Positions 31,414-37,508 of a stretch of DNA of 56,257 nt are shown in pieces (the first letter of the stretch is position 1; each line of letters opens with the position of its first letter). Source of the stretch: Flavobacteriales bacterium UBA1494 (GTDB lineage: Bacteria; Bacteroidota; Bacteroidia; Flavobacteriales_E; Vicingaceae); contig CAJJAT010000032.1 of the NCBI GenBank assembly GCA_905182175.1, positions 1-56,257 on the forward strand, written 5' to 3'. A program made the position numbers and the translations under genes. The notes under the pieces are model-generated. The model did no database searches and was not told the origin of the DNA. It saw only the letters and a program-made list of their open reading frames with translations.

Positions 31414-31463
31414 ATAATAAGCTAACCTTCTAACTCTTTTTCGTCGTTATAAAAATTTCTTTC

Positions 31464-33980
31464 ATGAAGTATATTGCACTTATTATATGTTTCCTGTTTA
31501 CTCAACTAACCTCCAACGCTCAGATTTATTTCTCTGAAGCGACGAACATAGAAGTAACAGAGGGTGCCAAACAAGTAGAACACCCCTTTACCGGTGGTTT
31601 CAACAATGCTCAATTTTCTGAAATTGACTTAAACCAGGATGGAGTGATGGACTTGATTGTAACAGACAGATTTCTAAATACCGTAAAACCCTATGTTAAC
31701 GATGGAATCGCAGATTCTGTCTCATATACCTACGCTCCTGAATATTCAGCTAAATTCCCAGATATGGATAGGGTACTAATTACTAGAGACTACAATGATG
31801 ATGGCAAGATGGACCTCTTCGTAACTGGTAACAGCATTTTTTTATATGAAAACACAAGCACTCCATCGGGAGGCCTATCGTTTCAGCTTGTTGATAAAAT
31901 GAGAACAAAATACAATTCTACGACCACGAACCAATCTATACTAAATCCAAACGCCGTTAATTATCCGGCTATTGTAGATTTGGAAGGTGACAAAGATGTG
32001 GATGTCATTTATCGTTCAAGCAACAGGACTCTAGACTATCACAGAAATTTATCAATTGACCAAAACAATAATTTTGATCCTATTTATGAAAGAAGAAACT
32101 CCTGTTGGGGATTTATCAGGTTTATTTTTAGCAAACAAACCTTTATACTAGACAGTGTCCTTTTTCAAGATTGCAGGTTTGACACAAGAGGAGAAAGATT
32201 AAAAAGACCAGATCTAGTAAAGAGAAACAAGCATACTGAAGCCTTGAGCACAACTGCTTTAGATATTGACAAGAATGGCAGTATGGACTTAGTCACCAGC
32301 GACATTGCGTCCTACCAGATGAGGATCCTATTAAATGCAGATTCAGGATCAAGCCAAACCAAAGTAAATTCAGAGATCTTTAAAATCATTGACTCTTTCC
32401 CCAATTATGATGTTCCTGTTCATTTGCTATACGCTACGGCGTATTTTATTGATGTAAATAACGATGGATTAAAAGACTTTATTGCAGCTTCAAGTCATTC
32501 GAATACAGAATTTACGGGACCACATGCCAAAGAAGAAATATGGTTATATGAAAATACATCCACCAACAATGGCTATCGATTTCAATTAAAAACCAAAACA
32601 TTCTTAAGGAACAAGACCTTAGATTTTGGCCGCAAATCCAAACCTACTTTTATAGATTATAACAAGGATGGTTTAAAAGACCTGCTAGTTGGTAGTGGTG
32701 GATATTTAGACTTCGCTGACTCTACCTTGTTTACCGATGCCTTAGCGTTACTTGAAAATATTGGAACTAAAAACACACCAAAATACAAGCTTGTCAATCG
32801 TGATTACCTTGAAATATCAACTCTTAATTTCGGGTTCACTCCTACATATTTTTCAAATTCATCTCCTGTTGTGGGAGATCTAGATGGTGACGGTGATGAA
32901 GACTTTCTGTTGGTGCAACGAAACCAAAAGGTTTATTGGTTTGAAGATACCGCAAGCGCAGGAAATATCGCAAGCTTCAAGTTTCACTCCAACCCTTATC
33001 AAGGTATTAAAGAGACTGAATCAGCAGATTTATTTGACATTAACAACGACGGATTGTTAGACTTAATTACTTCTAGAGACAACTTTGTTCAGTACTTTCC
33101 AAACTTTGGAACTGCACAATCGCCATTATTTAATTTACAACTTGATTCCATTGTTTGGCAAAACGGAGATACCTTGCGCTATCACATTGAAGGAAATCCA
33201 AATTATTCATTTTTTAAAATTGGCGATAGTTTGGCTGTAGACAATACCTTAAACCAAGACAACAATTCTAGAGTAGCTTTAATTGCAACTAATATCGACA
33301 CCCTGAATGATTTTATTGATTGTGTTAACACTAGTGCTCGTGGCGCAGGGAGTAATCAATACAATGAACTAAACACAACAGCAACCCTAAATTTTTTCAA
33401 TAGATCCTGGAAATTAAAGCGCAACGACACTAGGGTTGAAAACATTTTCTTGTTCAAAGATAAAGGTATAAATCAATTTTATGCAGGAGGGGCAAACAAT
33501 ACCACATTTAGAGTAAATAATGTATCAGATAGTTTACAGCCAATTCTTGAAACCAACCTGCAAACGGAAGAGATTTTCATGAGTCACTTTGGTGAAAGCA
33601 TGTTTATTGATGGAGCTGATATTAATGGGGACAGCATTGTAGATTTGGTAGTTGGTCTAAACACCGGAGGATTGAAAATAGTTTATGGGTCTAACGTTAA
33701 TAGCGTAAACGAAATTTCAAATAAAAGTAAGGTTTCGATCACTTTCAAAATTTTTCCGAATCCGACAAAGGATGTTTTAAATATTGAATTGTCAGAATTT
33801 AGCGGCAATTTATTAAGTACAATCGAAATTAGAGACCTATCCGGAAAAATCGTGTTAACAGGACAGTTGAAAACAAGACGTCAACAATTAAATGTCGCAT
33901 CACTTTCAAGAGGAGTCTATTTTATTTCCATTCGAAATAGAAACAAAATGCAAACTAAAAAATTGATCTTACAACCTTAA
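31464..33980 (+). CDS. Secreted FG-GAP/VCBS repeat protein with T9SS type A sorting domain
   Basis: An 838-residue protein expected at the cell surface or outside. It has a signal peptide (MKYIALIICFLFTQLTSNA, cleaved before QIYFSE) and at least nine calcium-loop repeats of the D-x-[DN]-x-D-G-x-x-D type, for example DLNQDGVMDLIV, DYNDDGKMDLFV, DYNKDGLKDLLV, DLDGDGDEDFLL, DINNDGLLDLIT and DINGDSIVDLVV. These are spaced through the protein as in FG-GAP beta-propellers. The C-terminal 75 residues are a T9SS type A domain (FKIFPNPTKDVLNIELSEFS through GVYFISIRN and a Lys-rich end). No catalytic motif was seen, so adhesion or binding is the likely role. It converges on the protease gene with a four-base stop overlap. 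Confidence 0.88.
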   Translation: MKYIALIICFLFTQLTSNAQIYFSEATNIEVTEGAKQVEHPFTGGFNNAQFSEIDLNQDGVMDLIVTDRFLNTVKPYVNDGIADSVSYTYAPEYSAKFPDMDRVLITRDYNDDGKMDLFVTGNSIFLYENTSTPSGGLSFQLVDKMRTKYNSTTTNQSILNPNAVNYPAIVDLEGDKDVDVIYRSSNRTLDYHRNLSIDQNNNFDPIYERRNSCWGFIRFIFSKQTFILDSVLFQDCRFDTRGERLKRPDLVKRNKHTEALSTTALDIDKNGSMDLVTSDIASYQMRILLNADSGSSQTKVNSEIFKIIDSFPNYDVPVHLLYATAYFIDVNNDGLKDFIAASSHSNTEFTGPHAKEEIWLYENTSTNNGYRFQLKTKTFLRNKTLDFGRKSKPTFIDYNKDGLKDLLVGSGGYLDFADSTLFTDALALLENIGTKNTPKYKLVNRDYLEISTLNFGFTPTYFSNSSPVVGDLDGDGDEDFLLVQRNQKVYWFEDTASAGNIASFKFHSNPYQGIKETESADLFDINNDGLLDLITSRDNFVQYFPNFGTAQSPLFNLQLDSIVWQNGDTLRYHIEGNPNYSFFKIGDSLAVDNTLNQDNNSRVALIATNIDTLNDFIDCVNTSARGAGSNQYNELNTTATLNFFNRSWKLKRNDTRVENIFLFKDKGINQFYAGGANNTTFRVNNVSDSLQPILETNLQTEEIFMSHFGESMFIDGADINGDSIVDLVVGLNTGGLKIVYGSNVNSVNEISNKSKVSITFKIFPNPTKDVLNIELSEFSGNLLSTIEIRDLSGKIVLTGQLKTRRQQLNVASLSRGVYFISIRNRNKMQTKKLILQP

Positions 33981-35388: not shown

Positions 35389-35517
35389 GGGTCTATTTTT
35401 AAATTGTTTATTTATTGAACTCTTTTAGGCCAGCTAAATTACCGAAGTACCATGGCAATAAAAAATAAAATTCTCTTTTTCGAAGCATAAAAATGAAAGG
35501 GGTAAGCAACCTTTGAA

Positions 35518-35525
35518 TAATTTTG
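35518..35525 (+). promoter_or_regulatory. Putative -7 box for the ECF sigma operon
   Basis: TAATTTTG matches TAnnTTTG and lies 24 nt upstream of the ATG at 35550. A start site near 35531 would exclude the longer upstream reading (ATG at 35523). No -33 TTG is present. Autoregulated ECF promoters often differ from the housekeeping type, so other start sites may exist. Confidence 0.4.
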
Positions 35526-35549
35526 CGTCATTGTAACAGAAAATCGGGA

Positions 35550-36116
35550 ATGGATTTATCAAACCAAGCGGACGTAAGGAAAATTGTGGATGGCTGCGTG
35601 GATAGAAATGCCCACTTTCAGCAATTTCTGTACAAAACATTGTACAGTAAAATGATGGTTGTTTGCTTGCGCTACGCGAGCCGACCTGAAGATGCAAAAG
35701 ATCTTTTTCAGGAAGGGTTCATCAAGGTTTTCGATAAAATTGAAAAGTTCAATTTTAATGGTTCTTTGGAAGGTTGGATTAGACGAATTATGGTAAATAA
35801 TGCCATAGACTATTATCGCAAAAACAAAAACAGGTTCGCCATGAGCGAAACCTTGTTTGAGGGTAAGCAAATTGCAAATGAAGTTGAGAGCGAAGGGATT
35901 TTTGACGGAGTTACTGCAGACCTACTTCTGTCTTTTGTGCAGCAATTAAGTCCAACTTATAAAACAGTTTTTAACTTGTACGTTTTAGATGACTATAGTC
36001 ATGCTGAGATTGGAGAAGAGTTGGGGATTTCAGAGGGAACATCAAAGGCGAATTTATTTAAAGCAAAAAGGAATTTAAAACAAATGGTAAAAGTGCATTT
36101 AGAAAAAATGCGATAA
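35550..36116 (+). CDS. ECF-type RNA polymerase sigma factor
   Basis: A 188-residue sigma-70-family factor of the extracytoplasmic function group, with region 2 and region 4 only. Region 2 is seen in MVVCLRYASRPEDAKDLFQE and the GWIRRIMVNNAIDYYRKNKN helix. Region 4 is seen in LSPTYKTVFNLYVLDDYSHA followed by the DNA-recognition helix EIGEELGISEGTSKANLFKA. A frame extending nine residues upstream to 35523 is possible, but it would begin within the putative promoter; the 35550 ATG is preferred. It is followed after eight bases by a membrane protein that looks like its anti-sigma factor. Target promoters unknown. Confidence 0.93.
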   Translation: MDLSNQADVRKIVDGCVDRNAHFQQFLYKTLYSKMMVVCLRYASRPEDAKDLFQEGFIKVFDKIEKFNFNGSLEGWIRRIMVNNAIDYYRKNKNRFAMSETLFEGKQIANEVESEGIFDGVTADLLLSFVQQLSPTYKTVFNLYVLDDYSHAEIGEELGISEGTSKANLFKAKRNLKQMVKVHLEKMR

Positions 36117-36124
36117 CATACAAT

Positions 36125-37411
36125 ATGAAAAATAAATTAACGACAGAAGAACAACTGCTTCAATCTAAATTGAATGAAGCTCAGTTCAGCTACAAAGAAT
36201 CGGACTGGAAACAGATTGAATCCGCTGTAGCCAAAAAAGGGTTTTGGGAAAATTACAATACCTTCTTCAAAGCAGCAGCAGCATTTGTAGTTCTTAGCTC
36301 TGCTATTTACTTAGTGAACACAAAGTACGACACAACTCCACGAACACAAACAGAAGCTAAAGCTGTTGAGAAGAAAGACTCAACATTTACAAAAAAGAAG
36401 TCTGTAAACTCTTCACAGGAGGTAATAACAACTTCAGAAAATATCCCTGTTGAAGAAATCATTGCATCTCAGACTCTTGAAAAGGATAAAGAAAGGTCAC
36501 ACACTGTTCCCCAAAAAGCTATAGATATTGTACTAATTAAGAATAAACTTATTAATGAAGTAGCTCCATTAAATAGCCGTTCAGATATAGATAAAAAACA
36601 ATTAGCACCAAACTTAGATTTTTTAAACATTAATGTTTTATCAAAAACATGCATTCATTCCTTAATTCAATTCGAAGGAGAATACGTAACAAGCCTTGAA
36701 GAAAACTTTCAGTTTAGCTGGCTTATTGATGACCAAATTATAAAAGGACAGAACTCTAACAACTCATATACCTTTAATAAAGAAGGAATTTATAAGGTAA
36801 CATTCCTTATTTCCAACGAGGAAGATTTGTTAGGTAAATTTTCTAAATTAATAGACATCGCCCCTAGTGAAATTATTGATTTTGAATATGAAAACATTAG
36901 CAATCCATTCTACGATCAAAATGTTCGATTAATAGCCATCAATCCTCCACCGGGTGACTACTTGTGGTATTCAAATAAGAAGGAAAGTAGGGTTCAATTT
37001 AACAAGGAAACTGCTTGGTGGTTTGAGCGCGAAGGCACCTATCAGATGAACTTGGATTACACTTCAAAAAATGGATGTACCGCTACTGCCACAAAATTAG
37101 TGGTTATGGAAAATCATTTTACACAAGAATCTTTCCCAAATGCATTTTCACCGAATAATGATGGGAGGAATGATGAGTTTATATTAAAAACGCTGCAACC
37201 TTACATTTTCTCAACATTTTTATTAGAGATCGTAGACATAAACGGACAGCCTGTATTCAGAACAAATGATAAAAATGTAGGATGGAATGGTCGGGTGAAC
37301 AATCATTCAGGAGAAATACTTCAAGGTATATTTGCTTGGCAGGTGGAGATTGAAAATGATAATGGAAGAAAGAGAACCTTTCATGGAAAAGTAAAAATTG
37401 CCAATTTCTAG
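36125..37411 (+). CDS. Membrane protein: anti-sigma-like N-terminus, T9SS type B (gliding-motility) C-terminus
   Basis: A 428-residue protein without signal peptide. Residues 1-47 are a short cytoplasmic region (QFSYKESDWKQIESAVAKKG) of the kind found in Bacteroidota anti-sigma factors. One transmembrane helix follows (about 48-65, FKAAAAFVVLSSAIYLV). Then come a Ser/Thr/Lys/Glu-rich linker, PKD-like beta segments (about 185-330), and a C-terminal gliding-motility/CHU_C domain (about 335-428) with FPNAFSPNNDGRNDEF and GWNGRVNNHSGEILQGIFAW. The last domain is normally the type B sorting signal of T9SS cargo. The gene starts eight bases after the ECF sigma gene. Anti-sigma activity is inferred from context and topology. 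Confidence 0.75.
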   Translation: MKNKLTTEEQLLQSKLNEAQFSYKESDWKQIESAVAKKGFWENYNTFFKAAAAFVVLSSAIYLVNTKYDTTPRTQTEAKAVEKKDSTFTKKKSVNSSQEVITTSENIPVEEIIASQTLEKDKERSHTVPQKAIDIVLIKNKLINEVAPLNSRSDIDKKQLAPNLDFLNINVLSKTCIHSLIQFEGEYVTSLEENFQFSWLIDDQIIKGQNSNNSYTFNKEGIYKVTFLISNEEDLLGKFSKLIDIAPSEIIDFEYENISNPFYDQNVRLIAINPPPGDYLWYSNKKESRVQFNKETAWWFEREGTYQMNLDYTSKNGCTATATKLVVMENHFTQESFPNAFSPNNDGRNDEFILKTLQPYIFSTFLLEIVDINGQPVFRTNDKNVGWNGRVNNHSGEILQGIFAWQVEIENDNGRKRTFHGKVKIANF

Positions 37412-37440
37412 CAATGTAGACTGAATCAATAAAACCCTTT

Positions 37441-37487
37441 AACATAAAGAAGGCTTTGCAATTAAATTGCAAGGCCTTCTTTATGTT
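37441..37487. terminator. Bidirectional terminator between convergent genes
   Basis: A long inverted repeat with arms of about 22 bp (AACATAAAGAAGG.. and ..CCTTCTTTATGTT) and a short AT loop, with only one wobble-type position. It lies between the stop codons of the plus-strand anti-sigma-like gene and the minus-strand phosphohexomutase gene and could stop both transcripts. Confidence 0.85.
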
Positions 37488-37508
37488 ATCAGTCCTCTGA
37501 GCTATTAA

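Follow-up and report, generated by a model that had tools for sequence, protein, structure and literature searches.

A conserved ECF sigma factor paired with a putative trans-envelope anti-sigma factor that carries a type IX secretion type B CTD-like domain in the Bacteroidota

The nearest precedents for control of type IX secretion system (T9SS) genes by ECF sigma factors are the PorA-PorXY-SigP route of Porphyromonas gingivalis and the SM6 promoters of Flavobacterium psychrophilum. For the Bacteroidota, little beyond PorXY-SigP of P. gingivalis explains how the output of huge T9SS surface proteins is kept in step with the capacity to secrete and anchor them. Regarding type B cargo, two papers describe the PorP/SprF family as shuttles and anchors for these proteins (PMC12618676, PMC9143113). 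The type B CTD of SprB has five conserved motifs, and mutation of any one of them is reported to block secretion (PMC12618676). The Dma proteins of Bacteroides form a family of dual membrane-spanning anti-sigma factors that work with the Das ECF21 sigma factors (PMC13088901). No description of an anti-sigma factor bearing a CHU_C domain or PorP/SprF was found in the open-licence literature.

Analysis of a stretch of 56,257 nucleotides from Flavobacteriales bacterium UBA1494 (contig CAJJAT010000032.1, hereafter the window) concerned a gene pair for which an original prediction had been made from the sequence alone. The predicted ECF sigma factor gene and adjoining second gene at 35550-37411 were correctly placed and are supported by Pfam and NCBIfam, with a gap of 8 bp between the two ORFs (Table 1). 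The sigma factor matches Sigma70_r2 (2e-15) and Sigma70_r4_2 (1e-14) in Pfam and TIGR02937 (1.3e-27) in NCBIfam; as in ECF sigma factors, regions 2 and 4 are present, region 3 is absent and the length is about 190 aa. In the 428-aa protein no signal peptide is apparent, as had been predicted, and about 45 mostly polar residues precede the sole TM helix (hydropathy and structural model). The AlphaFold model agrees with the proposed cytoplasmic start and single TM helix, having a two-helix unit (short helices 7-18 and 25-36, with W28 invariant in the homologue alignment), a long helix (40-66), a mostly disordered region at about 65-160 and, beyond it, three beta-domains modelled with confidence (residues 166-246, 253-328 and 335-425). 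The original topology was right but lacked the disordered tether and the pair of PKD/Ig domains; the promoter and the loss of RWG were also missed. The claim that the protein ends in a CHU_C sorting domain held in part: PF13585 matches residues 337-420 with 43.2 bits against a cut-off of 27, but TIGR04131, the NCBIfam model of type B sorting, scores 31.4 bits, under its cut-off of 35, and the RWG motif is lost, so that we do not regard the domain as an ordinary sorting signal. A fold search with the protein gave generic Ig/PKD folds among the matches listed, with no T9SS CTD structures among them, a result that rules nothing out. No Pfam anti-sigma domain, FecR included, matched at E <= 1. The tether of proteins with this architecture (type I) measures 90-121 aa in 25 homologues (median 99) and is rich in E, K, N, T and S.

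Table 1. Features of the gene pair, its surroundings and related loci (positions in the window unless a locus label is given).
Feature	Position	Strand	Basis or remark
Candidate sigma site CTAACC-N14-CGTC, 2 mismatches	31422..31445	+	before FG-GAP gene; such a match is not above chance in the window alone
FG-GAP protein with type A T9SS tail (Por_Secre_tail), possible regulon member	31464..33980	+	Pfam
ECF-type autoregulatory promoter element GCAACC-N14-CGTC (predicted)	35506..35529	+	exact match, 20 bp before sigma ATG
ECF sigma factor gene	35550..36116	+	188 aa, ATG at 35550; Pfam/NCBIfam, tree
Trans-envelope putative anti-sigma factor gene	36125..37411	+	428 aa
Cytoplasmic two-helix unit, residues 7-36, putative sigma-binding segment	36143..36232	+	AlphaFold helices 7-18, 25-36; invariant W28; profile match to barrel-type and type II N-termini
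TM helix, about residues 48-66	36266..36322	+	hydropathy maximum; long model helix 40-66
Disordered periplasmic tether, residues 67-165	36323..36619	+	low pLDDT at 65-106, 117-160; tether kept in 25 homologues
Two PKD/Ig-like domains, residues 166-246 and 253-328	36620..37108	+	PKD_4 slightly above cut-off; structural matches to PKD, Z about 10
CHU_C / type B CTD-like domain, residues 335-428	37127..37408	+	PF13585
I372-N373, position of R-W in cargo NRWG	37238..37243	+	alignment columns
Likely bidirectional terminator, 24-nt inverted repeat	37440..37488	.	between convergent genes, end of operon
Second ECF sigma / putative anti-sigma pair (type II)	L019:1450-3024, G000:C37	-	331-aa partner
Sister operon: sigma, PorP/SprF putative anti-sigma, RWG-less CHU_C protein	L331-L339 (families f12, f5), e.g. 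L332:8471-11621		

The search for other sigma-adjacent proteins of this topology, proposed earlier as a check, found an ECF sigma gene directly upstream in 27 of the 27 full-length homologues checked, commonly with an overlap of 4-23 bp, and this adjacency is far from chance. Full-length relatives were present in most genomes of the window family and in one further case from another family in a first genome sample, and a profile search of 396 sampled genomes of the class detected the protein as a full-length single ORF in at least 57 of them, belonging to 13 families. The locus of the window family often retains mdh, secDF and an FG-GAP T9SS protein as neighbours. The homologue in G004 (L027 / G004:C39 and C68) lies in two pieces at the ends of two contigs, and its matched frame contains stop codons; either the assembly or the gene is broken there. 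Loci of this Bacteroidota type also occur on contigs labelled Polynucleobacter, Kuenenia and Chlorobiota (L097, L104, L119), which are probably mislabelled or contaminated assemblies.

A scan of named genomes with a sigma profile yielded 79 readable downstream partners, 48 of which end in CHU_C, with three more that are truncated or divergent, while about ten end in a beta-barrel (Pfam OMP_b-brl in eight, two of those slightly under the cut-off) and short proteins of Chitinophagaceae make up the third main kind. The latter are 190-330 aa long and have no known sensor domain, and many of them share a tail, FxDIIEL (loci L109, L113, L117, L118, L120, L121, L124, L126, L128, L131, L133, L134, L137, L141, L153, L155, L157 and L161). 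Named carriers of CHU_C-ended partners include Lishizhenia tianjinensis, Cryomorpha ignava, Fluviicola and Brumimicrobium. SprA is present in 44 of 46 carrier genomes searched, the exceptions being one genome that is 84% complete and another in 130 contigs; this co-occurrence is weak evidence, since CHU_C proteins are common in carrier genomes and imply a T9SS anyway. The putative switch formed by the sigma factor and the CHU_C-bearing partner is conserved in many T9SS-bearing Bacteroidota.

Regarding the N-terminal unit, the CHU_C, barrel-type and type II partners have it in common (hhalign E-values of 4e-10, 3.4e-11 and 6e-9), and the window-type N-terminus matches that of the barrel-type (Dma-like) partners of related sigma factors (hhalign 96.7%, E 4e-10). 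These profile comparisons support a single putative anti-sigma module with exchangeable sensors, and the 428-aa protein may bind the adjoining sigma factor as its anti-sigma factor.

The CTD-like domain differs from that of cargo at the site where cargo proteins read NRWG, the window protein having D-I-N-G instead. In an alignment of 91 type I against 44 cargo domains, the (N/D)RWG of cargo has R in 88% and W in 84%, whereas in type I domains R is rare and W is absent from the common residues. The W at this site is found in 0/91 type I domains, 0/16 type II domains and 0/10 companion proteins of the PorP operons, against 46/53 in cargo; the Fisher p-values for its loss are tiny but overstated, as the sequences are related. 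NRWG is presumably one of the five secretion motifs of the SprB CTD. Since the CHU_C domains linked to sigma factors have lost RWG, and the motifs are needed by the SprB CTD, the domain of the putative anti-sigma factor is predicted to be unfit for export, and in the window it resembles a docking or decoy domain more than a cargo tag that has become stuck. The many CHU_C proteins that adjoin sigma genes are unlikely to be cargo, and annotation as cargo should be avoided. The system also suggests that sorting-signal domains may have a second life as regulatory domains.

The motif GCAACC-N14/15-CGTC was found upstream of the sigma genes, and in a relaxed form it precedes 70 of 81 sigma genes compared with 10 of 574 other genes at the same loci. 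Across the whole genome of the window, GCAACCN{13,15}CGTC has three matches: one before the window sigma gene, one within a coding region and one located 25 bp ahead of the ATG of a gene whose 1636-aa product combines a signal peptide and fn3 domains with a type B CTD in which NRWG is intact. Homologues of this protein, recognizable by a start resembling SHVLGGEI, have the motif 23-40 bp before the ATG in eleven other genomes (G001, G002, G003, G004, G007, G012, G013, G015, G019, G023 and G024; the proteins of G015 and G024 are more divergent), and an intact type B CTD was also read in G001, G002, G003 and G007. Judged by its promoter motif, the gene of a giant protein whose type B tag is intact appears to be activated by the sigma factor. 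The conserved giant SHVLGGEI surface protein, the predicted sigma target of about 1640 aa, is represented by L255:7302-12212 and its relatives L256-L260. Regarding the FG-GAP protein upstream of the pair, its orthologues in G001 and G005 carry exact sigma sites.

Large CHU_C genes lie directly 3' of the putative anti-sigma gene, on the same strand, at 12 of 45 loci in other families. Separate sigma promoters for these followers were considered and rejected, the motif being found for 1 of the 12 (3 of all 45 followers) and most of the genes being near enough for operon membership. The T9SS machinery was likewise rejected as the regulon: exact motif matches in 18 genomes lie at sigma genes, at genes for cargo and other secreted proteins, at a few unrelated genes and in coding regions, and no machinery gene was seen among them. 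No PorP/SprF gene was noticed adjoining the window pair or the gene of the 1636-aa target.

In a sister lineage the putative anti-sigma factor bears the type B shuttle barrel. The barrel-type partner L129 falls inside the type I sigma clade in the tree, and its barrel is PorP_SprF (E 1.5e-21); fusions of PorP/SprF to the anti-sigma-type N-terminus were detected in family f12 and in G298, and this form is present in eight sampled f12 genomes and one f5 genome. All nine sister loci that were read have the order sigma gene, putative anti-sigma gene (one to five W-type units, a TM helix, a tether and PorP/SprF) and gene for a 211-227-aa CHU_C protein in which RWG is absent and which in many cases has a lipobox-like start; in G183 the second of these ORFs is split. 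Modelled at low confidence, the PorP/SprF protein consists of four pairs of helices, one TM helix, a disordered segment and the barrel. As related sigma factors have putative anti-sigma factors fused either to CHU_C or to PorP/SprF, either half of the CTD:shuttle pair may be fused, and this is the strongest argument for the type B shuttle pathway as the probable input.

The genome of the window also has a second such pair (type II), whose 331-aa partner protein has a similar start, a TM helix, a longer tether (128-221 aa in type II, compared with 90-121 aa in type I) and an RWG-less CHU_C domain, without Ig domains. CHU_C is thus the constant part of the putative sensor and the Ig domains are optional, since type II keeps the former without the latter. 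An N-terminal probe from a type II relative, from which CHU_C was excluded, gave a single match in each of 55 genomes (21 genera) among the 396, and these matches cover the listed sampled genomes of genus g36; at the ten g36 loci read, both the upstream sigma gene and the C-terminal CHU_C were present in 10/10. The type II sigma genes have a motif of their own, TGCAAC(C/T)-N16-CATC, for which the sigma gene itself is the sole match in the genome of the window. At one type II locus (L343) a 139-aa CHU_C protein is found whose sequence is near that of the CHU_C domain of the anti-sigma protein at this locus. Independent origins of the type I and type II CHU_C partners could not be claimed, as a single clade of CHU_C-paired sigma factors was not rejected (AU p = 0.405).

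The best explanation, in which we place moderate confidence, is that an autoregulated ECF sigma factor and a trans-envelope anti-sigma factor sense the state of shuttle and cargo in the T9SS type B pathway and control cargo expression. The N-terminus of the anti-sigma factor would retain the sigma factor in the cytoplasm, while the TM helix and the long tether would carry the two Ig domains and the CTD-like domain toward the outer membrane. There, the CTD-like domain would dock at a shuttle of PorP/SprF type or at a translocon site, and would stay unexported because the RWG motif is missing. The anti-sigma factor would be altered, by pulling, competition or proteolysis, according to whether real type B cargo fills this site or leaves it vacant, and would so release or retain the sigma factor, which when freed would transcribe its own operon and the gene of the giant type B surface protein, so that in this proposal cargo supply would be matched to shuttle capacity. 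The gene pair, its architecture and conservation, the loss of RWG, the promoter motif with its predicted targets and the PorP/SprF sister form can be read in the sequences; the binding of the sigma factor, the docking partner and the sign and mechanism of the signalling we infer. Counting against this explanation are the fold search, with no T9SS CTD structures among its listed matches, the lack of T9SS machinery genes among the exact motif matches, the type II sigma factor, whose own motif matches at its own gene alone in the genome of the window, and the lack of a noticed PorP/SprF gene beside the window pair or the target gene. The earlier suggestion of a link from T9SS cargo to the sigma factor thus gained a conserved pair, a predicted regulon with a giant type B cargo protein and a PorP/SprF sister form, while the part in which the protein gauges T9SS activity or load stays conjectural.

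Regarding other explanations, it is possible, though we consider it unlikely, that CHU_C is now merely an Ig-like periplasmic sensor of glycan, misfolded protein or envelope stress, its T9SS ancestry being accidental, through recruitment from a neighbouring cargo gene. The loss of the RWG motif, and often of the terminal R/K too, the TIGR04131 score under the cut-off and the glycan binding common for Ig/PKD folds are all consistent with such a sensor, but CHU_C is the part kept constant even in type II proteins that have no Ig domains, the predicted sigma targets are type B cargo and the putative sister anti-sigma factor bears PorP/SprF. Quite improbable, in our view, is a protein that reaches across both membranes to sense a signal at the cell surface, its N-terminus remaining in the inner membrane and its CTD-like domain having passed SprA to be held outside by a shuttle: the combined length of tether and Ig domains would be ample, Dma proteins do span both membranes (PMC13088901) and the PorP/SprF-bearing forms should do so, but RWG has been lost in all sigma-linked CHU_C domains and no export is predicted, given that the SprB CTD needs each conserved motif. 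That the second protein is a separate membrane protein, merely co-transcribed and not an anti-sigma factor, as the lack of a Pfam anti-sigma domain at E <= 1 might suggest, is very improbable indeed in view of the invariant sigma adjacency and overlap, an N-terminal unit common to the partners of related sigma factors and the four copies of this unit in the PorP form.

The pair is a probable feedback loop for surface-protein secretion. With about even confidence for and against, it may represent a new class, in which a trans-envelope anti-sigma factor monitors the type B shuttle pathway of the T9SS by having one half of the CTD:PorP/SprF pair fused to it (either a secretion-dead CTD, as in types I and II, or the shuttle barrel together with a companion RWG-less CTD protein) and the sigma factor sets the expression of the matching giant cargo. 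If true, the T9SS would thereby possess a secretion-coupled gene switch whose basis is the sorting signal itself. The system supplies a directly testable sensor, sigma factor, promoter motif and target cargo gene, and laboratory tests are possible because type II occurs in all listed genomes of one large genus and type I in the cultured Lishizhenia tianjinensis and Cryomorpha ignava.

Compared with known systems, the window protein resembles Dma in the order of its parts, with a putative N-terminal anti-sigma unit, one TM helix, a long disordered tether and a large C-terminal domain, and is co-encoded with an ECF sigma factor. Regarding the N-terminal unit, the profile comparison covered the barrel-type partners of this sample, which the window profile matches (E 4e-10). 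The window protein differs in having PKD/Ig and CHU_C domains in place of the C-terminal outer-membrane beta-barrel, and the targets of Dma are OMV/PUL genes, compared with predicted T9SS cargo here. It is not filed as Dma because the defining beta-barrel is absent; the f12 form with the PorP/SprF barrel is closer to Dma, the barrel being found in that form only. T9SS type B cargo such as SprB and PG1035 (PMC12618676, PMC9143113) has in common with the window protein the C-terminal CHU_C fold, a start like FTPNGDG..ND, W(D/N)G, GxY.W/Y and the G.(V/I) end, whereas the window protein is inner-membrane-anchored (as predicted by its TM helix), paired with a sigma factor, without the R-W of NRWG and without an apparent signal peptide, and scores under the TIGR04131 cut-off; it is not type B cargo because no signal peptide is apparent, it falls below TIGR04131 and it has no RWG.

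In the PorA-PorXY-SigP route of P. gingivalis (PMC7712824) a CTD-bearing protein likewise influences a T9SS-linked ECF sigma factor, but this CTD surface protein acts via a two-component system, whereas here the CTD-like domain lies within the putative anti-sigma factor and the predicted targets are cargo. The SM6 (CGT-box) ECF promoters of F. psychrophilum, which drive gldN and porU (PMC9723704), similarly place an ECF sigma/anti-sigma operon and T9SS genes under one promoter class, but they control machinery genes and the responsible sigma factor is unassigned in that study (PMC9723704). FecI/FecR/FecA is alike in concept, an ECF sigma factor being joined to an inner-membrane anti-sigma factor that reads an outer-membrane partner, whereas the present system has no FecR domain, a CHU_C domain as the putative reader and no adjoining TonB receptor. 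The logic of the proposed switch would be comparable to that of FlgM and of cell-surface signalling.
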